Positions 18,955 through 56,216 of a stretch of DNA of 64,000 nucleotides are shown piece by piece. The notes under the pieces are model-generated. The model worked only from the letters and a program-made list of their open reading frames with translations. It did not search any database and had not been told where the DNA came from. Source of the DNA: Balneola sp. GTDB taxonomy: Bacteria; Bacteroidota; Rhodothermia; Balneolales; Balneolaceae. A program made the translations under genes and the position numbers. How positions within the stretch are numbered: position 1 is the first letter of the stretch; every line of letters starts with the position of its first letter. The stretch covers positions 171,448 to 235,447 of the forward strand of contig JAEPPZ010000005.1 of the NCBI GenBank assembly GCA_017640785.1, written 5' to 3'.

Positions 18955-19050
18955 ATTTTGTAAGACAGGTTAAGGTGTAATTCCTTACAAAAGTTTTTGA
19001 AAAACTTAATTAACTTTGATAAGTAACTCTATGATTCCAAGATTTTTCCT

Positions 19051-39742: not shown

Positions 39743-40900
39743 TCACTTCCCTTCCAACCACGAATAAGGATAACTCGGATCGTCTAGTCGCATGGCTTCT
39801 TCAGTGACGTACATCGGCTTAAAGGTATCGATCATCACTGCATATTCATCGGTTTCTTCTGCGCCGATGCTGGCTTCTGCTTTTCCGGGATGTGGTCCAT
39901 GAGGAATTCCACCGGGATGAAGTGTGATACTCGCATAATCCATTCCTTTTCTGCTCATGAAATCACCTTCCACGTAATACAGCATTTCATCTGAATCTAC
40001 ATTGGAGTGATTATATGGCGCCGGAATGGCATCGGGATGATAATCGAATTTCCTTGGACAGAAACTGCAAACCACATAATTATGTCCACGGAAAGTTTGA
40101 TGTACTGGTGGCGGTTGGTGAACTCTTCCGGTGATCGGCTCAAAATCCTTGATGTTGAAGATCCACGGATATAAATATCCATCCCAGCCAACTACATCTA
40201 GCGGATGATGATCAAAAGTATAATGATGCATTCTTCCGCCTTTCTTTATACGAACTTCAAACTCTCCATCGCCTTCAAAGAACAGTTGCTCTTGCGGTAA
40301 GCGGAAATCCCGTTCACAAAACGGTGAATTTTCCATGAATTGTCCCATTTCCGATAAATAACGCTTTGGAAAATCAATAGGCCCGGTAGAATCTACAGTA
40401 AGAACACGGTTCTTGTCCGTATCAAAATTCATTTGGTAGGTTGTTCCACGCGGGATGTAGATATAATCTCCGTATCCAAAATCCAATCGCCCAAAGTTGG
40501 TTTGCAGATGCCCCGTTCCTTCATGAATGAATAACAACTCATCATGTTCACCATTTCTGTAGAAATAATTCATGGCGTCGGTTGGTCGCATCACTCCGAT
40601 CTGAAGATCGTTATTGAACATCAAAACCTTTCGCCCGGTAATGGCATCTCCGCCTGTTGGAATATCTTTGGTCTTCAAATGTCGGTGACGTAGTGTTTGG
40701 TCGTCTGCCGCTTTAACTTCGATCTTTGTTCCTTGCTCGATCTTGGTCACTCGCGTCGGCATATGGTAATGGTACAGCAACGAGCTGTTTCCATGAAAAC
40801 CTTCTGCTCCGAATAATTCTTCCGTAAACAATTCTCCGTCCGGTCGGCGAAATACCGTGTGACGTTTATGCGGGATGGTTCCTAATGCGTGGTAATACAT
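39743..40900 (-). CDS. hmgA: Homogentisate 1,2-dioxygenase
   Basis: This 385-residue cupin-type iron dioxygenase opens the ring of homogentisate in tyrosine breakdown. It begins YYHALGTIPHKRHTVFRRPD and contains HEGTGHLQTNFG, YIPRGTTYQM, the C-terminal iron-site region TLHPGGIPHGPHPG and DPSYPYSWLE, as in the shorter bacterial homogentisate dioxygenase group. It lies downstream of hppD on the same strand, two consecutive steps of one pathway. Confidence 0.93.
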   Translation of the reverse strand: MYYHALGTIPHKRHTVFRRPDGELFTEELFGAEGFHGNSSLLYHYHMPTRVTKIEQGTKIEVKAADDQTLRHRHLKTKDIPTGGDAITGRKVLMFNNDLQIGVMRPTDAMNYFYRNGEHDELLFIHEGTGHLQTNFGRLDFGYGDYIYIPRGTTYQMNFDTDKNRVLTVDSTGPIDFPKRYLSEMGQFMENSPFCERDFRLPQEQLFFEGDGEFEVRIKKGGRMHHYTFDHHPLDVVGWDGYLYPWIFNIKDFEPITGRVHQPPPVHQTFRGHNYVVCSFCPRKFDYHPDAIPAPYNHSNVDSDEMLYYVEGDFMSRKGMDYASITLHPGGIPHGPHPGKAEASIGAEETDEYAVMIDTFKPMYVTEEAMRLDDPSYPYSWLEGK

Positions 40901-40920
40901 GGCTTAATTTTGAATGTTTA

Positions 40921-40960
40921 ATTATGAATTTTGAATTAGCGGCCATTCAAAATTCATAAT
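40921..40960. repeat. Operon hairpin between hppD and hmgA
   Basis: ATTATGAATTTTGAAT (40921-40936) and ATTCAAAATTCATAAT (40945-40960) are exact 16-bp inverted repeats. The junction is otherwise only AT-rich filler. It resembles the gene-less hairpins of the paa cluster. Confidence 0.75.
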
Positions 40961-40978
40961 CCATAATTAATAATTCGT

Positions 40979-42115
40979 TTAGAGGTTTCCTCTCAACTCT
41001 TGTTCGCGTTCTATGGCTTCGAAAAGTGCTTTGAAGTTTCCTTTTCCGAATCCTCGGGCTCCTTTTCGCTGAATGATCTCATAAAACAATGTTGGACGAT
41101 CAACTACAGGCTTCGTAAAGATCTGAAGTAAATATCCTTCATCATCTCTGTCAACCAGAATTCCAAGATCAGCGAGTACATCAATGGGCTCATCGATCTT
41201 CCCTACTCTTTCTTCCAGTTCTTCGTAATAGGTTGTTGGCACTTTAAGAAAGTCCACTCCCCTGTCACGAAGTTTGGTCACTGTATCAATAATATCTGCT
41301 GTAAGTAAAGCTACGTGTTGAACTCCAGGTCCTTCAAAGAAATCCAGATATTCTTCGATTTGCGATTTCTTCACACCATCAGCCGGCTCATTGATCGGAA
41401 ATTTTATCATTCCCCTACCACCTGCCATCACTTTACTCATCAAAGCGGTGTATTCGGTAGAGATATCTTTGTCATCAAAACTGATGTACTGCGTGAAACC
41501 AAGAACATCTCTGTAAAAAGCTACCCAGGTATCCATTTCTCCGAGTTCCACATTGCCAACGCAATGATCCACAAACTGAACACCAACAGGTTCGGTGCTG
41601 ATCAGACTTTCTTTGGCAACAAATTTCGGAAAGAAAATCCCATCATATTCTGTTCTGTTAATGAAAGAGTGAATTACATCACCGTAGGTTCTGATGGCTG
41701 CTTTTCTGATCGTTCCATCGCCGTCAGTTATGGAATGTGGTTCTTCAACAACTTCCGCTCCTCTTTTCACACTTTCCTTAAATGCACGATCCACATCTTC
41801 CACATGCATTGCAATATCTTTGATTCCATCTCCATGCTTATGCACAAACTCCGAAATGGGTGACTTACTGCTTAGCGGAGCTGTAATCACAAACCGAATA
41901 TTCCCTTGTTCTAAATAATAAGAAGATCTATCCCGAACTCCGGTTTCTAAACCTGAGTAAGCTTTTAGTTGAAATCCGAAAGTGGTTATGTAATAATGGG
42001 CGGTTTGTTTAGCATTACTTACATAGTGCTCCACATAATCCACATCCTGTAATCCCAGATGGTCATCAAATTCTTCTTCTATTTCTCTTTCCAATACGTT
42101 GTCTTGATCTTTCAT
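40979..42115 (-). CDS. hppD: 4-hydroxyphenylpyruvate dioxygenase
   Basis: This 378-residue vicinal-oxygen-chelate enzyme makes homogentisate from 4-hydroxyphenylpyruvate. Iron ligands are visible in FVDHCVGNV (His), GPGVQHVALLT (His) and LFYEIIQRKG (Glu), followed by the GARGFGKGNFKALFEAIE helix that closes the active site. It is first in a two-gene minus-strand unit with hmgA and divergent from the paa cluster. Confidence 0.96.
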   Translation of the reverse strand: MKDQDNVLEREIEEEFDDHLGLQDVDYVEHYVSNAKQTAHYYITTFGFQLKAYSGLETGVRDRSSYYLEQGNIRFVITAPLSSKSPISEFVHKHGDGIKDIAMHVEDVDRAFKESVKRGAEVVEEPHSITDGDGTIRKAAIRTYGDVIHSFINRTEYDGIFFPKFVAKESLISTEPVGVQFVDHCVGNVELGEMDTWVAFYRDVLGFTQYISFDDKDISTEYTALMSKVMAGGRGMIKFPINEPADGVKKSQIEEYLDFFEGPGVQHVALLTADIIDTVTKLRDRGVDFLKVPTTYYEELEERVGKIDEPIDVLADLGILVDRDDEGYLLQIFTKPVVDRPTLFYEIIQRKGARGFGKGNFKALFEAIEREQELRGNL

Positions 42116-47604: not shown

Positions 47605-48754
47605 AGAAACAGCAGTAGGAATCATAGGCGCAGGTACAATGGGCGCCGGAATCGCACAAATAGCATCTACAAATGGACATGAAGTTTATCTGTATGATGC
47701 TTACGCCGAACAGCTTCCAAAAGCTAAATCAGGGTTAGAAAAGATCCTGAATCGTCAGGTTGAAAAAGGGAGAATGTCACAAGAAGAAGTGGATGGAATT
47801 CTTTCCCGAATCCATTTTGTGGAAGACATCACAGAATTTGGAAAGTGTGGCTTTGTGATTGAAGCTATCGTAGAAAATATTGATGTCAAAAAAGATGCTT
47901 TTCAACGATTGGAAGGAATTGTTTCTAAAGATTGTGTGCTTGCATCCAATACCTCTTCCCTTTCCATTGCTTCGATCTCATCAGCATTAAAAAAGCCGGA
48001 ACGGTTCTTAGGGGTCCATTTTTTCAATCCTGCTCCGCTGATGAAATTGGTGGAGATCATCCCAAGTGTAGCCACTAATTCTGATCTAGCGCAATCAACC
48101 AAAGAGTTCATTTCCGGATGGGGAAAGATCACGGTCTTAGCAAAAGACACTCCCGGATTTATCGTTAACCGTGTGGCTCGACCTTTTTATTCCGAAGCAC
48201 TCAGGATTTTGGAAGAAGGCGTTGCCGATGTTCCAACCATCGATTGGGCAATGAAAGAGATCGGCGGTTTCAGAATGGGACCTTTCGAACTAATGGATCT
48301 TATCGGTCATGATGTAAATTATGAAGTGACATCAAGCGTATTCAAAGAATTTTACTACGACCCAAGATTCAAACCTTCATTTACTCAAAAACGATTGGTT
48401 GAAGCCGGTTGGTTAGGCAGAAAATCGGGTAAAGGATTTTATAATTACGGAGAGGATGCAAAAAATCCTGATCCAAACACTGACAAAGAATTAGGCGAAG
48501 AAATTCTTCACAGAATACTCGTAATGCTGATCAACGAAGCTTTCGATGCCGTATTTATGAATATAGGTTCTGCGGAGGATGTAGATCTTGCAATGCAAAA
48601 CGGAGTGAATTACCCAAAAGGCTTACTTGCATGGGCGGAAGAGATAGGATTAGAAAAAGTCTTAGGCCGAATGAATGCTCTTTATGAGGAATATCAGGAA
48701 GACCGCTACAGACCTAATCCACTTTTGAAAAGAATGGTAAGAGAAAAGCAGTAA
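47591..48754 (+). CDS. paaH: 3-hydroxyadipyl-CoA dehydrogenase PaaH
   Basis: I chose ATG 47591; a TTG at 47576 is less likely. The 387-residue enzyme oxidises 3-hydroxyadipyl-CoA. It has GIIGAGTMGAGIAQIAS (NAD loop), ASNTSSLSI, GVHFFNPAPLMKLVEI (catalytic His), DTPGFIVNRVARPFYSEA, MGPFELMDLIGHDVN, GWLGRKSGKGFYNY and a second C-terminal domain. It is shorter than the 475-residue E. coli protein but complete in domains. Confidence 0.93.
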   Translation: MTLDKETAVGIIGAGTMGAGIAQIASTNGHEVYLYDAYAEQLPKAKSGLEKILNRQVEKGRMSQEEVDGILSRIHFVEDITEFGKCGFVIEAIVENIDVKKDAFQRLEGIVSKDCVLASNTSSLSIASISSALKKPERFLGVHFFNPAPLMKLVEIIPSVATNSDLAQSTKEFISGWGKITVLAKDTPGFIVNRVARPFYSEALRILEEGVADVPTIDWAMKEIGGFRMGPFELMDLIGHDVNYEVTSSVFKEFYYDPRFKPSFTQKRLVEAGWLGRKSGKGFYNYGEDAKNPDPNTDKELGEEILHRILVMLINEAFDAVFMNIGSAEDVDLAMQNGVNYPKGLLAWAEEIGLEKVLGRMNALYEEYQEDRYRPNPLLKRMVREKQ

Positions 48755-48822
48755 TCAGAATTCAGGAGTTCAGGAGTTCAGAATATGAGTAGAACTCTGC
48801 TGAATTCTGAACTCCTGATTAC
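48751..48822. repeat. Operon hairpin between paaH and paaI
   Basis: The left arm 48751-48784 contains GTAATCAG plus two overlapping copies of AGGAGTTCAG. The right arm CTGAATTCTGAACTCCTG (48800-48817) continues into ATTAC. The paaH stop codon (48752-48754) lies in the left arm. The word TTCAGGAGTTCAGAAT recurs in the arms of the four-helix-bundle element at 54977-55430. Confidence 0.75.
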
Positions 48823-48839
48823 TGACAGCTAACAACAAT

Positions 48840-49247
48840 ATGAGCAAAGACTACAAAAACATAATTCAATCCATGATGGAAAAAGATGCCTTTTCCCAGT
48901 GGATGGGTATTGAGATATTGGAATCAGAATCGGGATATGTGAAAATATCCATGGAGATCCGTCAAGAAATGTGCAATGGATTTGGGATTTGTCATGGCGG
49001 AATTACATTCTCTTTAGCTGACAGTGCTTTAGCATTTGCATCCAACTCCAGAGGCTCAATATCTGTAGCCTTGGAAAATAATATCAACTATACTAAAAAA
49101 GTAGAAGTAGGTGATACACTTATTGCTGAAACAGAAGAAATTCAAAACGGAAGAACCATCGGCGTGTATAAGATCAAGGTTGTGAATCAGAATGATGATC
49201 TAGTTGCAGATTTTAGGGGAACGGTTTATAGGACTGGCAGACATTAG
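48840..49247 (+). CDS. paaI: Phenylacetate-pathway thioesterase PaaI
   Basis: The 135-residue hotdog-fold thioesterase has FSQWMGIEILESESGYVKI, MCNGFGICHGGITFSLADSA (Asn-His-Gly catalytic region with the downstream Asp) and AETEEIQNGRTIGVYKI. PaaI removes CoA from dead-end hydroxyphenylacetyl-CoA and rescues the CoA pool. Confidence 0.93.
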   Translation: MSKDYKNIIQSMMEKDAFSQWMGIEILESESGYVKISMEIRQEMCNGFGICHGGITFSLADSALAFASNSRGSISVALENNINYTKKVEVGDTLIAETEEIQNGRTIGVYKIKVVNQNDDLVADFRGTVYRTGRH

Positions 49248-49689
49248 ATGTTAGTATTCAGTAGTTAGATTTTTAGTATCGAAAGTAGGAGTATTTTTAT
49301 GCATCAATTTAAAGAATTAAAGGTTTGGCAGAAATCTGTAGAATTAGCTACTGAAGTTTATAATTCTACTAAGAATTTCCTATCCGAAGAGAAGTTTGGG
49401 ATAACTTCTCAAATTAGAAGAAGCGTTGTTTCTATAGGCTCAAATATCGCTGAAGGTGCTGGAAGAAAATCAAAAAAAGAATTCAAACTATTTCTAAACT
49501 ATGCATATGGGTCATGTTCTGAACTCGAAACTCAACTTATCATTTCAAAAAATTTAGGATTTTTAAATCCAGACTCATTACCTGTTTTATCTGAATCAAT
49601 TAATGAAATTCAAAAAATGATCTACTCTCTGTCTAATAGTTTGAACTAGGTGATGAAAACTAATTTCTAAATACTCAATACTACTATCT
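49246..49689. mobile_element. IVS-like cassette 1: inverted repeats around a four-helix-bundle gene
   Basis: The left arm 49246-49276 (AGATGTTAGTATTCAGTAG...) and right arm 49660-49689 (...ACTCAATACTACTATCT) are about 80% reverse-complementary. The left arm overlaps the paaI stop; the right arm ends one base before the thiolase start. The enclosed gene is on the plus strand. The right arm shares the word CTCAATACTA with the hairpin at 44697. Confidence 0.7.
49299..49649 (+). CDS. Four-helix-bundle protein, 23S rRNA IVS type (1)
   Basis: The 116-residue helical protein of the IVS/four-helix-bundle family has FKELKVWQKSVELATEVYN, FGITSQIRRSVVSIGSNIAEG (family signature), KEFKLFLNYAYGSCSELETQL and a last helix SINEIQKMIYSLSNSL. 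Relatives are encoded in 23S rRNA intervening sequences and as the Avd protein of diversity-generating retroelements, where a basic bundle binds nucleic acid. No rRNA or retroelement is present here. Confidence 0.92.
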   Translation: MHQFKELKVWQKSVELATEVYNSTKNFLSEEKFGITSQIRRSVVSIGSNIAEGAGRKSKKEFKLFLNYAYGSCSELETQLIISKNLGFLNPDSLPVLSESINEIQKMIYSLSNSLN

Positions 49690-49690
49690 C

Positions 49691-50908
49691 ATGTCTAAAA
49701 GCGAAGCGTACATAATCGACGGAATCAGAACTCCAATTGGAAAATTGAAAGGCACACTCTCTTCTATCAGAGCGGATGATCTTGCGGCAATTCCTATTAA
49801 AGAACTTTTGAAAAGAAATCCGGAATTAGATCCTGCTTCAGTAGAAGATGTGATACTGGGATGTGCAAATCAAGCCGGAGAAGATAACAGAAATGTCGCT
49901 CGAATGGCTGCTTTACTTGCCGGACTTCCGGTATCAGTTCCGGGCGAAACCGTGAATCGTTTATGTGCATCAGGAATGAGCGCCACAATTCGTGCTTTTC
50001 ATGCAATAAAAGCCGGTGAAGGCGATGTTTTTATCACCGGAGGTGTAGAACATATGACTCGCGGACCTATCGTTCTAGGCAAAGGAAATTCTCCTTATTC
50101 AGGAACGACTGAAATGCATGATTCTACTTTCGGATGGAGATTTGTAAATCCAAAAATGCATGAAATGCATGGAACTGATGGAATGGGAATGACTGCTGAA
50201 AATGTAGTTGAAATGCACAAGATATCTCGGGAAGATCAGGATAAATTTGCTACTTGGAGTCAACAAAAAGCCGGTGTAGCTCGTGATTCAGGTCGTTTGG
50301 CTAAAGAAATTGTAAAAGTCGAAATCCCACAAAGAAAAGGCGACCCGATCGTTTTTGAACACGATGAATTTATGCGTCCAGATACAACTGCTGAAATTCT
50401 TGGAAAGCTCAGACCTGCATTTAGAAAAGATGGTTCAGTAACTGCAGGAAATGCTTCGGGATTGAATGACGGAGCCGGAGCTTTATTGATCGCTTCAGAT
50501 TCTGCTGTTAAGCAATATGGGTTCAAACCAAAAGCCAGAATTGTTGCTTCGGCAGTTTCCGGAATTGAGCCTAGAATTATGGGACTTGGTCCTGTGGAAG
50601 CAACTCAGAAAGCTTTGCAACGCGCCGGACTTTCCTTAGACGATATGGATATTATTGAACTCAACGAAGCGTTCGCCGGACAATCTCTTGGAGTTACCAG
50701 AAAACTTGGACTGGAAGACAATGATTCGAGACTAAATCCGAATGGTGGAGCAATTGCAATCGGACATCCATTAGGAATGACTGGACAAAGATTACTTCAA
50801 ACTGCTACCATCGAGCTACATGAAAATTCTGATAACAAATACGCACTTTGTACTTTGTGTGTAGGAGTTGGACAGGGATTTGCTGTTGTTTTGGAGAAGG
50901 TTAGTTAA
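49691..50908 (+). CDS. paaJ: 3-oxoadipyl-CoA thiolase
   Basis: The 405-residue thiolase begins YIIDGIRTPIGKLKGTLS. Motifs: VNRLCASGMSA (nucleophile Cys), GGVEHMTRGP, NEAFAGQSLG, GGAIAIGHPLGMTGQR (His) and LCTLCVGVGQG (second Cys). The position fits PaaJ, which releases succinyl-CoA and acetyl-CoA. The final step could be shared with other ring pathways (PcaF). Confidence 0.92.
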   Translation: MSKSEAYIIDGIRTPIGKLKGTLSSIRADDLAAIPIKELLKRNPELDPASVEDVILGCANQAGEDNRNVARMAALLAGLPVSVPGETVNRLCASGMSATIRAFHAIKAGEGDVFITGGVEHMTRGPIVLGKGNSPYSGTTEMHDSTFGWRFVNPKMHEMHGTDGMGMTAENVVEMHKISREDQDKFATWSQQKAGVARDSGRLAKEIVKVEIPQRKGDPIVFEHDEFMRPDTTAEILGKLRPAFRKDGSVTAGNASGLNDGAGALLIASDSAVKQYGFKPKARIVASAVSGIEPRIMGLGPVEATQKALQRAGLSLDDMDIIELNEAFAGQSLGVTRKLGLEDNDSRLNPNGGAIAIGHPLGMTGQRLLQTATIELHENSDNKYALCTLCVGVGQGFAVVLEKVS

Positions 50909-50912
50909 TTAA

Positions 50913-51334
50913 GAGATTAAGTTATTGAGTAATTAAGTTTCTAATATGTACAAACTATCTGAACTAGAATCTTGGAAATCAGCACGGCAATTACGAATTG
51001 CTATTTCTGATTTAGTAAAATCATTTCCAGCTGACGAAAAATTTAGATTGAAGGATCAGATTGTCAGATCTTCAAGGTCAATTCCTGCTAATATAGCGGA
51101 AGGGTTTGGTCGTTTTCATTATCAGGAAAACATTCAGTTTTGTAGAATTGCTAGAGGTTCGTTATATGAAACTCTTGAACACTTGATGTGTGCTAAAGAT
51201 GAAGGCTATATTACCGCTGAGCAATTTCAAGATTTGAATGATCAAATTCTTGAATGCCTAAAAATATTAAATGGATATGTTCAGTATCTTAAAAAAGCAA
51301 AGAAATCCACTTAATTACTCAATAACTTAATCTC
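50913..51334. mobile_element. IVS-like cassette 2: perfect 26-bp inverted repeats around a four-helix-bundle gene
   Basis: Bases 50913-50938 (start GAGATTAAGTTATTG) are the exact reverse complement of 51309-51334 (end AATAACTTAATCTC), 26 of 26. The left arm starts 4 bp after the thiolase stop. The gene's own stop TAA lies in the right arm, which ends 16 bp before paaY. Confidence 0.85.
50946..51314 (+). CDS. Four-helix-bundle protein, 23S rRNA IVS type (2)
   Basis: The 122-residue protein has LSELESWKSARQLRIAISDL, LKDQIVRSSRSIPANIAEGFG (family signature), QFCRIARGSLYETLEHL and a basic C-terminus KKAKKST. It is clearly homologous to, but not a recent duplicate of, the proteins at 49299, 52519 and 55066. 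Its final codons and stop are formed by the right inverted repeat. Confidence 0.92.
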   Translation: MYKLSELESWKSARQLRIAISDLVKSFPADEKFRLKDQIVRSSRSIPANIAEGFGRFHYQENIQFCRIARGSLYETLEHLMCAKDEGYITAEQFQDLNDQILECLKILNGYVQYLKKAKKST

Positions 51335-51350
51335 CTAAACACTAAGCCGA

Positions 51351-51950
51351 ATGGCGATCTACGAATACAAAGAATATAAACCAGTAATTCACGAAAGTGC
51401 TTACATACATCCGCTTGCGGCTGTGACTGGAAATGTGATTATCGGCAAGGATGTGTATATCGGTCCCGGGGCTGCTATTCGAGGTGATTGGGGAAAGATC
51501 GTAATTAAAGATGGCTGCAATGTTCAAGAAAATTGTACCATTCATATGTTTCCGGGAGTTACTGTTACTCTGGAAGAAGGCGCACATGTTGGGCACGGAG
51601 CTATTATTCATGGTTCGCACCTTGGTAAGAACTGTTTGATCGGAATGAATGCTGTAATCATGGATAATGTGAAAATTGGTTCCGGCTGTATTGTAGGTGC
51701 TTTGACATTTATCAAAGAAGGAATGGAAATTCCGGATCGTAAAGTTGTGGTTGGAAATCCTGCTAAAATAGTGAAAGATGTTTCTGATGACATGCTGAAA
51801 TGGAAAACAGAGGGAACCGGTTGGTATCAAAGATTACCTAAAGAATTGCATGAAACCTTGAAAGAATGTGAACCGTTGAGAGAAATACCTGAAGATAGAA
51901 AAGATCAGAACTCTGACTATGAGACTTGGGGCAAATCGAAGGATGGTTAA
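51351..51950 (+). CDS. paaY: Gamma-carbonic-anhydrase-like hexapeptide protein PaaY
   Basis: The 199-residue left-handed beta-helix protein has VTGNVIIGKDVYIGPGAAIRGDWG, VQENCTIHMFPG, HVGHGAIIHG and CLIGMNAVIMDNVKIG, with the three zinc histidines of the gamma class. PaaY is a thioesterase-like accessory of phenylacetate pathways. Its stop codon lies in the left arm of the next hairpin. Confidence 0.92.
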   Translation: MAIYEYKEYKPVIHESAYIHPLAAVTGNVIIGKDVYIGPGAAIRGDWGKIVIKDGCNVQENCTIHMFPGVTVTLEEGAHVGHGAIIHGSHLGKNCLIGMNAVIMDNVKIGSGCIVGALTFIKEGMEIPDRKVVVGNPAKIVKDVSDDMLKWKTEGTGWYQRLPKELHETLKECEPLREIPEDRKDQNSDYETWGKSKDG

Positions 51951-52031
51951 TAGCGATTAGTTATTTGGAGAGTCTTTGCTTTACGTTATTTTCTACTCTG
52001 TCCATAAAACCAATAACTAATCACCATTAAC
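51945..52031. repeat. Operon hairpin between paaY and the next gene
   Basis: GGTTAATAGCGATTAG continuing to 51968 pairs imperfectly with CCAATAACTAATCACCATT continuing to 52031. The paaY stop (51948-51950) is in the left arm; the next start follows 7 bp after the right arm. The words match the hairpin at 43853 (CTAATAACCAATAAC). Confidence 0.7.
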
Positions 52032-52038
52032 AGAACAC

Positions 52039-52482
52039 ATGGGATTTTTTAAGAACGATAAAAAAGGAAAGCCACCGCATACCTGGTATCCTGAAATATT
52101 ACACTGGCGAGAAGGTGATAAGATCTTTTGCTGGAATATTGCAAAAGCATTGGGTTATTTGAATGCCAAATCGAAAGATTTGTACAAGTATATGTCTGCT
52201 ACTGAACAAATGAGTGGTGGCTTTGGCAAAGCTAATTTTTTCTATAAATCAGTTGACGAAACCGGCAATATTTATCTGGAATATGAAGGTGAAACAGTAC
52301 AATTTGAGTTTTGGAGATTTATTAAATCATCTGAAAATGAAAGCTTGAAGTCTCGAAATTTGCAAGATGACGTAAAGAATTCAAAAAAATACATGGAATT
52401 GATGTCGACCTTTCAACATGCATTCGATGAACTACAGGAAGCGGATGATCATCCGAAGAGACTAGGTCAAAAAAACTCGTAA
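52039..52482 (+). CDS. Unknown soluble protein in the paa cluster
   Basis: It is not recognised. The 147 residues include HTWYPEILHWREGDKIFCWN, SKDLYKYMSATEQMSGG, LEYEGETVQFEFWRF and a charged helical tail. There is no signal peptide and no membrane segment. The beginning (a compact beta-rich WREGDKIFCWN block) could be a small ligand-binding domain. It sits between a hairpin and cassette 3. Confidence 0.6.
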   Translation: MGFFKNDKKGKPPHTWYPEILHWREGDKIFCWNIAKALGYLNAKSKDLYKYMSATEQMSGGFGKANFFYKSVDETGNIYLEYEGETVQFEFWRFIKSSENESLKSRNLQDDVKNSKKYMELMSTFQHAFDELQEADDHPKRLGQKNS

Positions 52483-52920
52483 CTGGTTACTCGTTTCTTT
52501 TAACTTAGAAATATAATCATGAGCTACCGTAATTCAGAGATCTGGCAACTTGCAAAGGAGCAATCAAATAAAATTCATTTTATGAGTTTAAAACTTCCAA
52601 GATTTGAGCTTTATGAAACCGGAAGTCAAATAAGAAGATCTTCAAAATCGGTGCGCTCGAATATTGTTGAAGGATATGGTAGAAGAAGTTATAAAAGGGA
52701 ATATATTCGATTCTTAATTTTTGCTCTCGCGTCTAACGATGAGACTAGAGATCATCTTGACTCGCTATATGAAACTCAATCATTAAAGAGCAAAGAACTT
52801 TATCTTGAACTGATAGAATTAAATGATAAACTTGGGAAGAAATTGAACCTCTTCATCCAATCGGTAGAAAGAACACAATAATAATTATGGAAACTGATAA
52901 CCAGAATCAAGAAACGAGTA
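52483..52920. mobile_element. IVS-like cassette 3: weak arm pair, right arm inside paaZ
   Basis: CTGGTTACTCGTTTCTT (52483-52499) has a reverse complement matching 52909-52925 in 15 of 17 positions, including 12 in a row. The right arm lies in codons 8-13 of paaZ, not in the gap. This is much weaker than the other three pairs and could be chance. Confidence 0.4.
52519..52881 (+). CDS. Four-helix-bundle protein, 23S rRNA IVS type (3)
   Basis: The 120-residue protein has [40 protein letters not shown] (family signature) and a very basic second helix ([22 protein letters not shown]). It is the most divergent of the four. It ends 5 bp before paaZ. Confidence 0.9.
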
Positions 52921-54962
52921 GCGAGCTAAAAGTACAAAGTTATATTCAAGGAAAGTGGCTATCAAAAGGATCAGAAACTGATCTTATCAGTGCTATTAAC
53001 GAAAAACCAGTTGCTCAATTAGTCGAAGCTGATATCGATTATCACTCTGCACTGGAATACGGACGAACTGTAGGTGGACCTGCCCTTCGCAAACTCACCA
53101 TCCACGAGCGTGCCTTTAAAATTAAGTTTCTTGCTGCTTATTTGATGGAGAGAAAGGAAAAACACTACAAACTTTCTTCTCACACAGGAGCTACCCGTAA
53201 AGATTCCTGGATAGATATTGAAGGTGGGTATGGATCTATGTTTGTACTTTCCAGCAAAGCCCGTCGAGAACTTTCCGACCTCCCTTTCCACGTTGAAGGT
53301 GGAACTGAACGTCTTTCCAGAGGCGGAACTTTTGTTGGACAACATATTTGTGTTCCAAAGCATGGAATCGCCGTTCATATCAATGCATTCAATTTTCCGG
53401 TTTGGGGAATGGTTGAAAAATTGGCGCCGGCAATTATGGCGGGACAGCCATGTATCATCAAGCCTTCACCGGTTGGATCATACTTGGCTTACGAAGTCTT
53501 TAAAGATATTATTGAATCTGAAATTCTTCCTGAAGGAAGTGTACAGTTCATAGCTGCAGATAAACCCGGAGATCTTCTGGATCACCTTAACAGTCAGGAT
53601 TCTGTTTCTTTTACCGGATCGGCTACTACAGGCAAGAAATTAAAATCGCATCCCAATATTGTAGCGAATTCTATTCAGTTTAATATGGAAGCCGATTCAT
53701 TGAATGCGTCAATTCTTGGTCCTGATGTTACTCCTGATATGGAAGAATTCAATCTTTTCATTAAGGAAATCGGCATGGAAATGACCGTTAAAACAGGACA
53801 AAAATGTACCGCCATTCGTCGAACTATTGTTCCAAGAGAACGACTTGAAGATGTATCCGAAGCACTAAAGATCTTTCTTTCAAAAACAACCATAGGCGAT
53901 CCTACAGATAAAGATACCAGAATGGGACCTTTGGCTTCCAGTCTTCAGTCTCAAAGATTTGATGAACAACTTGCAGTGCTTGAAGACGTGACAGATTCTA
54001 TTTTTTCTAACGGAACTCATGAAGGCGCTTTCACTAGCCCGAAAGTTTTGGTTTGTCATCAACCAATGAAAGTTGATAAAGTCCATGAAGTTGAAGCTTT
54101 CGGACCAATGACAACCATCATGCCTTATGATTCTACTGAAGAAGCTATTCAGCTTGCCAATAAATCTGATGGTTCTTTAGTGGCTTCTCTTTTTACTGCT
54201 GATGATGATATTGCAGCAAAAATAACTTTAGGATGCGCTCCTTATCACGGTCGTTTTATGGTGATCAACAAAGATTCTGCAGGCGAGTCAACGGGACATG
54301 GTTCCCCGATGCCGCATATGGTCCATGGTGGTCCGGGAAGAGCGGGAGGCGGAGAAGAACTTGGTGGAGCCAGAGCAGTACTTCACAATATGCAGAGAAT
54401 CGCTCTACAAGGCTCCCCTACTACATTAATGAACATAGTTAAGCAACACATTAAAGGAGCAGAAACAAAGGAAGCGCCTAAGCATCCATTCCAAATGTAT
54501 TTTGAGGAATTAGAAGTGGGACAGTCTTTGCTTTCTGATGTTCGAAAGGTTAAAGATCAGGACGTTGAGGATTTTGCTAATCTTTCCGGTGATCATTTCT
54601 ATGCGCATACAGATCCTGACGCAGCTTCCCGATCTTTGTTTGGTAAAATTGTTGCTCATGGATATTTTGTGCTTTCCGCAGCAGCCGGACAGTTTGTTCA
54701 TCCTGATGAAGGGCCTGTATTGCTTAATTATGGATTAGAAAATCTGGCTTTTCTGGCTCCTGTTGCTCCCGGAGATACCATCCAAACTAAACTCATTGTA
54801 AAGCGAAAAACAGTTCGCCAACAACGGGAAATGGACCTATTCCCTTTTGGAGTAGTGTATTGGGATGTAGAAGTAAAAAATCAGGAAGACGTTTTAGTTG
54901 CTGAGTATACCATACTAACTTTAGTGAAAAGAAAGAATAAATTAGATATCGACCTGGTTTAG
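52887..54962 (+). CDS. paaZ: Bifunctional PaaZ: oxepin-CoA hydrolase / semialdehyde dehydrogenase
   Basis: The 691-residue fusion carries out ring opening. Residues about 15-525 are an aldehyde dehydrogenase with [21 protein letters not shown] (general-base Glu) and [10 protein letters not shown] with catalytic Cys307. Residues about 535-690 are a MaoC-like R-hydratase domain with [32 protein letters not shown] and [12 protein letters not shown]. The first 14 residues ([14 protein letters not shown]) extend beyond the usual start and overlap the possible arm of cassette 3. Confidence 0.95.
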
Positions 54963-54976
54963 TCTGTGGTCAGAAC

Positions 54977-55430
54977 TCAGAATTTCAGGAGTTCAGAATT
55001 GATCTTTTTTGTAAGGAATTGCTTTGAATTGGTCTTATTAGATAACTAATAAATAATTTTTATCTATGAAACCAGCACAAACATTTAAAGACCTTTTAGT
55101 TTGGCAGAAAGCGCATAAATTTGTACTTGAAAGCTATGCTTATTCAAAGAGCTTCCCAAAAGAAGAAATTTATGGTCTTACTTCGCAGTATAGAAGAGCC
55201 TCTGTATCAATAGCCGCAAATATCGCTGAAGGATTCAAGAAAAGAGGACAAAAAGATAAAGCAAGATTCATGAATATCGCACAAGGATCATTGGAAGAAT
55301 GTAGATATTACCTTATACTCGCACAAGATTTAGGATATGGATCATCTCAAAACTTGAACGATCTCCTTGAGGAAGTGAGTAAAATGCTTTCAAGTTATGG
55401 AAGATCAATTCTGAACTCCTGAAATTCTGA
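54977..55430. mobile_element. IVS-like cassette 4: perfect 28-bp inverted repeats around a four-helix-bundle gene
   Basis: Bases 54977-55004 (start TCAGAATTTCAGGAG) are the exact reverse complement of 55403-55430 (end GAACTCCTGAAATTCTGA), 28 of 28. The left arm starts 14 bp after the paaZ stop. The last codons and stop of the enclosed gene are inside the right arm. Arm words recur in the hairpin at 48751. Confidence 0.85.
55066..55422 (+). CDS. Four-helix-bundle protein, 23S rRNA IVS type (4)
   Basis: The 118-residue protein has FKDLLVWQKAHKFVLESYAY, YGLTSQYRRASVSIAANIAEG (family signature), FMNIAQGSLEECRYYLILAQDLGYG and a final helix LLEEVSKMLSSYGRSILNS. The last five residues and stop are coded by the right arm of the flanking inverted repeat. 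Confidence 0.92.
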   Translation: MKPAQTFKDLLVWQKAHKFVLESYAYSKSFPKEEIYGLTSQYRRASVSIAANIAEGFKKRGQKDKARFMNIAQGSLEECRYYLILAQDLGYGSSQNLNDLLEEVSKMLSSYGRSILNS

Positions 55431-55451
55431 ACTCCTGAAGAACTAATAAAT

Positions 55452-56216
55452 ATGTCAAAAGACGGCAACGTAGAACTAACCATTTCAAATAATATCGGAA
55501 CCATCGAATTTTCTCATCCAAAGGGGAATTCATTACCGGGTGCTATACTCAGAAAACTGGCTTCAACAATTGATGAAGCGGGAAAAGATAACGACATAAA
55601 AGTGATCGTAATAAAAAGTTCAGGTGAAGGGGCATTTTGCGCCGGAGCTTCTTTTGATGAATTGGTTGCCATTGAAGACTTTGAAACAGGAAAACAATTT
55701 TTTATGGGATTCGCGCTAGTCTTAAACGCCATGCGACAATCACCTAAACTGATCATCGTTCGAGTTCATGGAAAAACAGTAGGTGGGGGAGTTGGAATTG
55801 CATCGGCCGGAGACTATACCTTTGCAAAAAAAGGAGCATCTGTAAAACTTAGTGAGTTAGCTTTAGGGATTGGTCCATTTGTAGTTGGTCCTGCTGTGGA
55901 ACGAGCTGTAGGTACTTCTGCATTCTCAACAATGGCTGTGGATGCCACTACTTGGTATGATTCAACATGGGCAACTCAGAAAGGGCTTTTCAACAAAGAG
56001 TTTGAAACTACTGAACAATTGAATGAAGCTGTTTCGAATTTAGCTGAGCAACTTTCCAAAAGCAGCTCTGAAGCTATGCAGGAATTAAAACAAGTGCTTT
56101 GGAAAGGAACGGAAGACTGGAGCGAGCTTTTAGACCAACGGGCTGAAGTAAGCGGTCGATTAGTTTTATCAGATTATACTAAAAACTTTATCAAGAAATT
56201 TAAGTCGAAAAACTAG
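55452..56216 (+). CDS. Enoyl-CoA hydratase/isomerase family protein (PaaF candidate)
   Basis: The 254-residue crotonase has FSHPKGNSLPGAIL, GEGAFCAGASFDEL (oxyanion hole), VHGKTVGGGVGIASAGDYTFA and VKLSELALGIGPFVV. The second catalytic Glu (SEL) is kept; the first is Gly-Val-Gly, as in some methylglutaconyl-CoA-hydratase relatives. By position it could be 2,3-dehydroadipyl-CoA hydratase PaaF, but the family match is loose. Its stop and that of the convergent kinase gene share the four bases CTAG. Confidence 0.8.
   Translation: MSKDGNVELTISNNIGTIEFSHPKGNSLPGAILRKLASTIDEAGKDNDIKVIVIKSSGEGAFCAGASFDELVAIEDFETGKQFFMGFALVLNAMRQSPKLIIVRVHGKTVGGGVGIASAGDYTFAKKGASVKLSELALGIGPFVVGPAVERAVGTSAFSTMAVDATTWYDSTWATQKGLFNKEFETTEQLNEAVSNLAEQLSKSSSEAMQELKQVLWKGTEDWSELLDQRAEVSGRLVLSDYTKNFIKKFKSKN

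Follow-up and report, generated by a model that had tools for sequence, protein, structure and literature searches.

Four of the 14 IVP genes in the Balneola sp. genome lie in the paa operon of the window, the whole 64,000-nucleotide stretch of DNA that was analysed here. IVP proteins are four-helix bundles known mainly from ribosomal-RNA inserts and, widespread as they are, we know of no role that has been assigned to them. The fourth gene, in what we call cassette 4, is located between paaZ and an enoyl-CoA hydratase gene, and its coding sequence runs into one arm of a long inverted repeat. The locus raises the question of whether the gene and its arms belong together, as the original prediction proposed, and, if so, as what kind of unit. 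Cassette 4 has the following parts.

54977..55006, forward strand: left arm, octamer/heptamer units TCAGAATT TCAGGAGT TCAGAATT GATCTT, one half of a 30/30 inverted repeat
55009..55037, forward strand: predicted ECF-like promoter, TTGTAAGGA-N-GGTCTTA, between the left arm and the gene
55066..55422, forward strand: gene for the IVP (four helix bundle) protein, 118 amino acids (PF05635, E=5e-38; TIGR02436, E=9e-36)
55401..55430, forward strand: right arm, coding for the last six IVP residues and the stop
55423..55439, forward strand: second copy of the right-arm unit in a shifted register, from the repeat search

The inverted repeat was predicted to be perfect over 28 positions; a repeat search of the window found it perfect and longer, with 30/30 complementary positions (54977-55006 and 55401-55430) and 394 nucleotides between the arms. 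The predicted spacing of 14 bp between paaZ, which ends at 54962, and the left arm was also found. A shifted 17-nucleotide match (54984-55000 with 55423-55439) is present as well, owing to a 16-mer that occurs twice in the right arm, and the copy number of the right-arm unit at this site is two in genome G000, three in G004 and about eight octamers in G003. Cassette 4 is an octamer variant (TCAGAATT, TCAGGAGT) among arms that are mostly built from heptamers. The IVP open reading frame is the sole gene-sized family match between the arms. Its product scores 129.9 bits against PF05635 (cut-off 33.8) and 122.4 bits against TIGR02436 (cut-off 24), above the curated cut-offs, and is a member of the IVP/TIGR02436 family. 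A search of positions 48500-56000 of the window against Rfam gave no match.

Cassette 4 has three gene-bearing relatives and a gene-less one in the same operon.

48755..48825, forward strand: gene-less miniature relative (site S0, the paaH|paaI junction), inverted octamer arrays with an 18-nucleotide loop
49239..49269, forward strand: left arm of cassette 1, ATGTTAG-type heptamers
49299..49649, forward strand: IVP gene of cassette 1 (paaI|paaJ junction)
49666..49696, forward strand: right arm of cassette 1
50909..50938, forward strand: left arm of cassette 2, TTAAGTTA-type octamers, 29/30 complementary
50946..51314, forward strand: IVP gene of cassette 2 (paaJ|paaY junction)
51309..51338, forward strand: right arm of cassette 2
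52488..52499, forward strand: core of the left arm of cassette 3
52519..52881, forward strand: IVP gene of cassette 3, the right arm of which lies within the N-terminal codons of paaZ
52909..52920, forward strand: core of the right arm of cassette 3, within paaZ

Flanking inverted repeats were found at all four IVP genes of the window, with scores of 30, 27, 16 and 12, and at 0/45 of its other genes at the same threshold, none of which had a score as high as 12; shuffles that preserved composition never scored above 12. The arrays also overlap the neighbouring genes: paaZ starts in the right arm of cassette 3, and the stop codon of the upstream gene lies within the arrays of cassettes 1 and 2. 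Elsewhere in the window, at 40900-40979, heptamer arrays (ATTATGAATTTTGAAT / ATTCAAAATTCATAAT) around a short loop form a further hairpin without a gene, which is probably a miniature relative of the cassettes.

To see the arms in a wider setting, 173 IVP loci drawn from Balneola, the rest of its family and a cross-phylum set of 80 records were surveyed, the relatives covered overall numbering 187. In 114/173 cassettes the gene is flanked by an inverted repeat that exceeds the 99% null, and in Balneola a cassette's own arms scored 14.2 against 7.9 for swapped arms. The autocorrelation of the arms at lag 7 was 0.59, 0.64 and 0.79 in three sets, compared with about 0.30 after shuffling, with a second peak at lag 14 and weak or absent signals at other lags except in some octamer arms. 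Arms in the clade of the cassette 4 protein are built from YCAGRAK units, in which the G of position 4 and the A of position 6 are each conserved at 99%, and have a modal length of four to five units; this heptamer is used alike in cyanobacteria, Chloroflexi, Acidobacteria and Clostridia, within a cross-phylum set that was drawn from the window's clade and so over-represents its heptamer.

The identity of the heptamer follows the protein. Among cassette pairs with no similarity between their flanks, the cosine similarity of arm 4-mers rose from 0.09 below 50% protein identity to 0.52 at 60-70% and 0.65 at 70-80%, and arm type correlated with protein identity (Mantel r 0.70, 0/999 permutations), as it did when left arms alone, which are almost wholly non-coding, were used (Mantel r 0.67). 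Cassettes of different clades within Balneola have arms of low similarity (0.12), and the arms of the 14 copies in a single genome differ, what is kept being the seven-nucleotide period and, within a clade, the heptamer. That arm sequence follows protein clade at unrelated sites and across phyla supports the original prediction that gene and arms form one unit. For the same reason we rejected the proposal that the arms are copies of the target site.

These data also bear on the suggestion that the arrays are independent short tandem repeats on which IVP genes land by chance. Genomes of Nostoc, Anabaena and Sphaerospermopsis do have hundreds of array matches and few IVP genes, as this suggestion expects; in Nostoc linckia, pattern searches gave 782 and 750 overlapping YCAGRAN array matches (none in the reversed control) and 79 and 77 overlapping matches to inverted pairs with loops of 100-130 nucleotides (control also 0), in a genome with only eight IVP genes. 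A solo array at three empty cassette 4 sites, described below, points in the same direction. Chance landing does not explain why most cassettes have two inverted arrays, one on each side, why own arms match better than swapped ones, or why the heptamer tracks the protein clade, and we regard it as very improbable. The excess of solo arrays over IVP genes in cyanobacteria nevertheless suggests that arrays may spread by other means. In several Balneola genomes the start of an open reading frame is occupied by a long, pure TCAGAAC array of at least ten units, as at L261 (G000:C1:107740-108020) and L222 (G001:C17:508654-508737).

The overlap between right arm and gene has consequences for the protein. 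The original prediction assigned the last five residues and the stop of the cassette 4 protein to the right arm; the stop is indeed there, preceded by six codons (RSILNS). At 36 of the roughly 60 window-clade loci with a right array, that array starts exactly 21 nucleotides before the end of the stop codon, so what is translated as the protein tail is arm sequence. The right array in this clade yields a tail that can be summarised as I-L-x-S-x-S-stop. Read in this frame, ATTCTGA-MTYCTGA-MTYCTGA gives I-L-x-x-x-x-stop, hence the tails ILNSDS, ILTPDS and ILTSDF that are found in many phyla, and octamer units in the same frame end after ILNS, as in cassette 4. Since seven is not a multiple of three, stops occur in all three frames in 52% of right arms, against 4% of shuffled arms. 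Arm sequence and protein end had been expected to evolve together. This is correct across clades, as the cassette of Picosynechococcus PCC 7003, with a different repeat unit and a different tail, illustrates; it is wrong as a rule within sites. Within a clade and site the tail is kept: in G003 the cassette 4 protein still ends in RSILNS despite a right arm that has been rebuilt and expanded and a left arm that has decayed. Moreover, the right arm reaches less than 6 nucleotides into the gene in 32 of the 46 Balneola cassettes that have arms, and tails did not match their own left arms significantly better than other left arms (p = 0.06). It is unusual, genetically, for a C-terminus to be translated from the end of the element that carries it.

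Comparison of the paa junctions of eight Balneola genomes revealed gain, loss and exchange. The site of cassette 4 (S4) is occupied in three and empty in five; site S1 holds two different IVPs among the eight genomes; at S2 the gap is 3 bp (TAA-N3-ATG) in G003 and G005 and 430-490 bp in the others, with a different IVP in G004; and at S3 stop and start overlap in G005 and G006. The gene-less miniature at S0, the arms of which are of the cassette kind, is present in 6/8 genomes, and in G003 it has another arm sequence with pairing retained. The gaps at the empty S4 loci L041, L045 and L047 measure 67, 67 and 64 bp, and an identical 32-nucleotide solo array (AATTTTG-AATTTTT-AATTCTT-AATTTTG-AATT) is found there in G001, G006 and G005, the last a more distant genome; the array may be a remnant left by a lost cassette or a site at which cassettes land.

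Might the IVP gene be an ordinary resident of the host genome, with flanking repeats that serve as terminators or regulatory hairpins? Purifying selection on the protein is strong (median dN/dS of 0.09 among orthologues, 0.04-0.09 at S4), and other genera of the family have IVP genes of the same clade at their paaZ junction, there on the opposite side of a promoter-like motif. A resident gene would not be expected to have close relatives with empty junctions or other IVPs in its place, nor arms that are specific to its clade across phyla, nor cassettes of the same clade at unrelated junctions, and heptamer arrays are not a feature of terminators. We consider this explanation improbable, while acknowledging that purifying selection at fixed sites fits a host function too.

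An RNA-level role is a stronger competitor. Here the arm stem in the operon mRNA would be cut by RNase III and the cassette released, with pairing under selection. In the predicted fold of the cassette 4 transcript the full 30-bp arm stem forms the closing helix (z = -4.6), both neighbours are co-directional with the cassette in 111/180 cases, compensatory changes are seen at S2 and S0, and the 23S intervening sequence (IVS) of Coxiella combines the same protein family with a 28-bp terminal stem, heptamers and excision by RNase III (PMC4990558). The pattern of substitution tells against it. Arm pairs compared among orthologues were unchanged in 704 cases, broken on one side in 107, changed to G-U in 38 and compensatory in just 10, and in G003 the arms of cassette 4 no longer pair and the gene is retained. 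Arm mismatches comprise 150 G.T and 147 A.C, without the G.T excess that selection for pairing predicts, and selection on the RNA structure of the arms was rejected on this basis. The parity favours a role for the arms at the DNA level, during insertion, ahead of one in RNA excision. The RNA-level explanation is kept alive by the operonic placement of the cassettes and by the known RNase III biology of the 23S IVS (PMC4990558), and we give it a small chance of being correct.

The promoter of cassette 4 (TTGTAAGGAATTGCTTTGAATTGGTCTTA), between the left arm and the gene, offers a hint about when the protein is made. Its strict form, TTTGTAAGGA-N13..19-TGTCTNA, occurs at 18 sites in the genome and at none in the reversed control. 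The targets include ssb, yifB/comM, radC, a gene for a ComEC-like metallo-hydrolase, one for a RecQ-type helicase with a PD-(D/E)XK domain, five RAYT/Y1-type genes, four GIY-YIG-type nuclease genes and three IVP genes; in this list, the assignment of the C4 target as a RAYT and of the C14:9232 target as an IVP is based on position, and that of two of the GIY-YIG-type nucleases on sequence similarity to scanned ones. IVP genes are over-represented (hypergeometric p = 6e-5, about 3000 genes), and the promoter is present in only 20/78 Balneola cassettes. Nearly all of the 18 targets are DNA-processing or selfish genes, and a second TTGTAAGGA...TGTCTTA copy is found at 18961-18990 of the window, on the reverse strand, ahead of a gene for a single-domain GIY-YIG-type nuclease. 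In Haemophilus parasuis the competence regulon includes comM, radC and ssb (PMC5809987); by analogy the Balneola set may be a competence-like regulon. The sharing of this promoter by cassette 4 and DNA-uptake-type genes suggests that the cassette 4 protein would be made while foreign single-stranded DNA is processed.

The distribution of the family is consistent with movement between lineages. Close relatives of the cassette 4 protein occur in at least 16 named phyla, most at 63-72% identity, and changes of phylum along the weakly resolved IVP tree number 29 or more, against a minimum of 15. Some relatives are on cyanobacterial plasmids, for example between cas10/cmr2 and cmr3 in Picosynechococcus PCC 7003. 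Among 58 Balneolaceae genomes, YCAGRAN arrays were detected by pattern search in 27/47 with IVP genes and in 0/11 without (p = 4e-4), an association that is confounded with genome size and gives p = 0.019 after size matching. Across the same 58 genomes, IVP and Y1/RAYT copy numbers are correlated even when genome size is taken into account (partial rank correlation 0.58-0.62; 0.58 in IVP-bearing genomes only). Mobilisation by Y1/RAYT transposases was rejected, the sampled RAYT genes having palindromes of their own in place of heptamers, so the correlation probably reflects common exposure to foreign DNA. Dependence on a reverse transcriptase was rejected too: PF00078 had no match in the 13 Balneolaceae genomes with at least ten IVP genes, the source genome included.

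The explanation that we prefer, and hold to be rather probable, is that gene and arms constitute one small DNA cassette with heptamer ends matched to the clade of its protein, and that it belongs to a widespread class. Each cassette consists of a gene for a pentameric four-helix-bundle protein (the PDB relatives 2gsc and 2rld have five chains) between two inverted arrays, each of about four to five degenerate heptamers or sometimes octamers. Gene and arrays would pass down together, every protein clade having a heptamer of its own. Cassettes would enter, leave and replace one another at gene junctions inside operons, where the arrays supply boundary codons: three-frame stops on the right, the protein tail, and sometimes a start codon or the stop of a neighbour. 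The comparisons above show the architecture, the period, the ends specific to each clade, the spread across phyla, the presence or absence at junctions and the purifying selection. We infer that the heptamers are read by the IVP ring, probably as DNA and with about one subunit to each unit, and that the ring draws on host functions in promoting the retention or insertion of DNA with array ends; cassettes may move with DNA uptake. Against the cassette explanation, neither a transposase nor a nuclease is encoded in the cassette; no clear target-site duplication was seen, a 12-nucleotide repeat at 55044/55441 not being conserved in G004 or G003; and no fresh copy was seen at two sites within one genome. 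If IVP proteins do recognise the arrays, DNA with repeat ends would have in them a partner of a new kind.

How does such a cassette compare with known systems? It lacks the transposase of a classical insertion sequence, and its terminal repeats are not conserved between copies. RAYT/REP elements and MITEs are likewise small and palindromic and have gene-bearing and gene-less forms; the IVP protein is not a Y1 transposase, however, and the RAYT/Y1 genes sampled in Balneola are flanked by other palindromes. In Nostoc linckia (G062) there is a family of gene-less elements of about 150 bp, the inverted arms of which are of the YCAGRAN type and the core of which is conserved in part (for example C57:63014-63159 and C14:92045-92189). 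These elements and the S0 hairpin resemble MITEs in being gene-less and sharing their ends with a gene-bearing element. The Avd protein of diversity-generating retroelements is a bundle homologue (PMC10053308), and the cassette 4 protein matches NF033474 with E=2e-6, scoring below the Avd cut-off; unlike those retroelements, the Balneola sp. genome has no match to a reverse transcriptase (PF00078).

The closest parallels are with elements that are defined by heptamers. The same protein family is present in the 23S rRNA IVS of Coxiella and Leptospira, with inverted repeats of about 28 bp at the termini, and in Coxiella GACAGAT heptamer repeats lie beside the S23p open reading frame and RNase III performs the excision (PMC4990558). 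Cassette 4 shares the terminal inverted repeats around an IVP open reading frame and not the 23S location; the cassettes described here are found in protein operons, show no sign of selection for RNA pairing and have clade-specific arms. The G. metallireducens genome has eight pairs of sites on opposite strands, one pair between proB and proA, and 15/16 of the sites are five tandem heptamers MTYCTGA (PMC2700814), the reverse complement of the window clade's TCAGRAK; they were taken to be binding sites, with IHF or HU as a guess, in a paper the text of which does not mention an IVP/S23 protein (PMC2700814). The TAACTGA tandem arrays of Beggiatoaceae, cyanobacteria and Bacteroidetes (PMC4679880) are also seven-nucleotide repeats between genes, although no inverted pairing of them on either side of an IVP gene was reported. 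Our literature search, which took in few subscription papers and no preprints, turned up no report of a connection between heptamer arrays and IVP genes outside rRNA.

The heptamer repeats of Coxiella rRNA, Geobacter, Beggiatoaceae and cyanobacteria were described separately and without an owner, and the clade-specific match between protein and heptamer joins them to the IVP proteins and makes recognition testable by a binding assay. It is possible, and we offer it only tentatively, that IVP proteins are ring-shaped readers of heptamer arrays in minimal, transposase-free mobile cassettes found in many phyla, with a pentamer corresponding to about five heptamers per end and with spread through DNA uptake linked to competence. 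The gene-less hairpins and at least a part of the heptamer repeats of cyanobacteria and Geobacter would then be non-autonomous offspring of such cassettes, and the 23S IVS would be a special case of the same arrangement.
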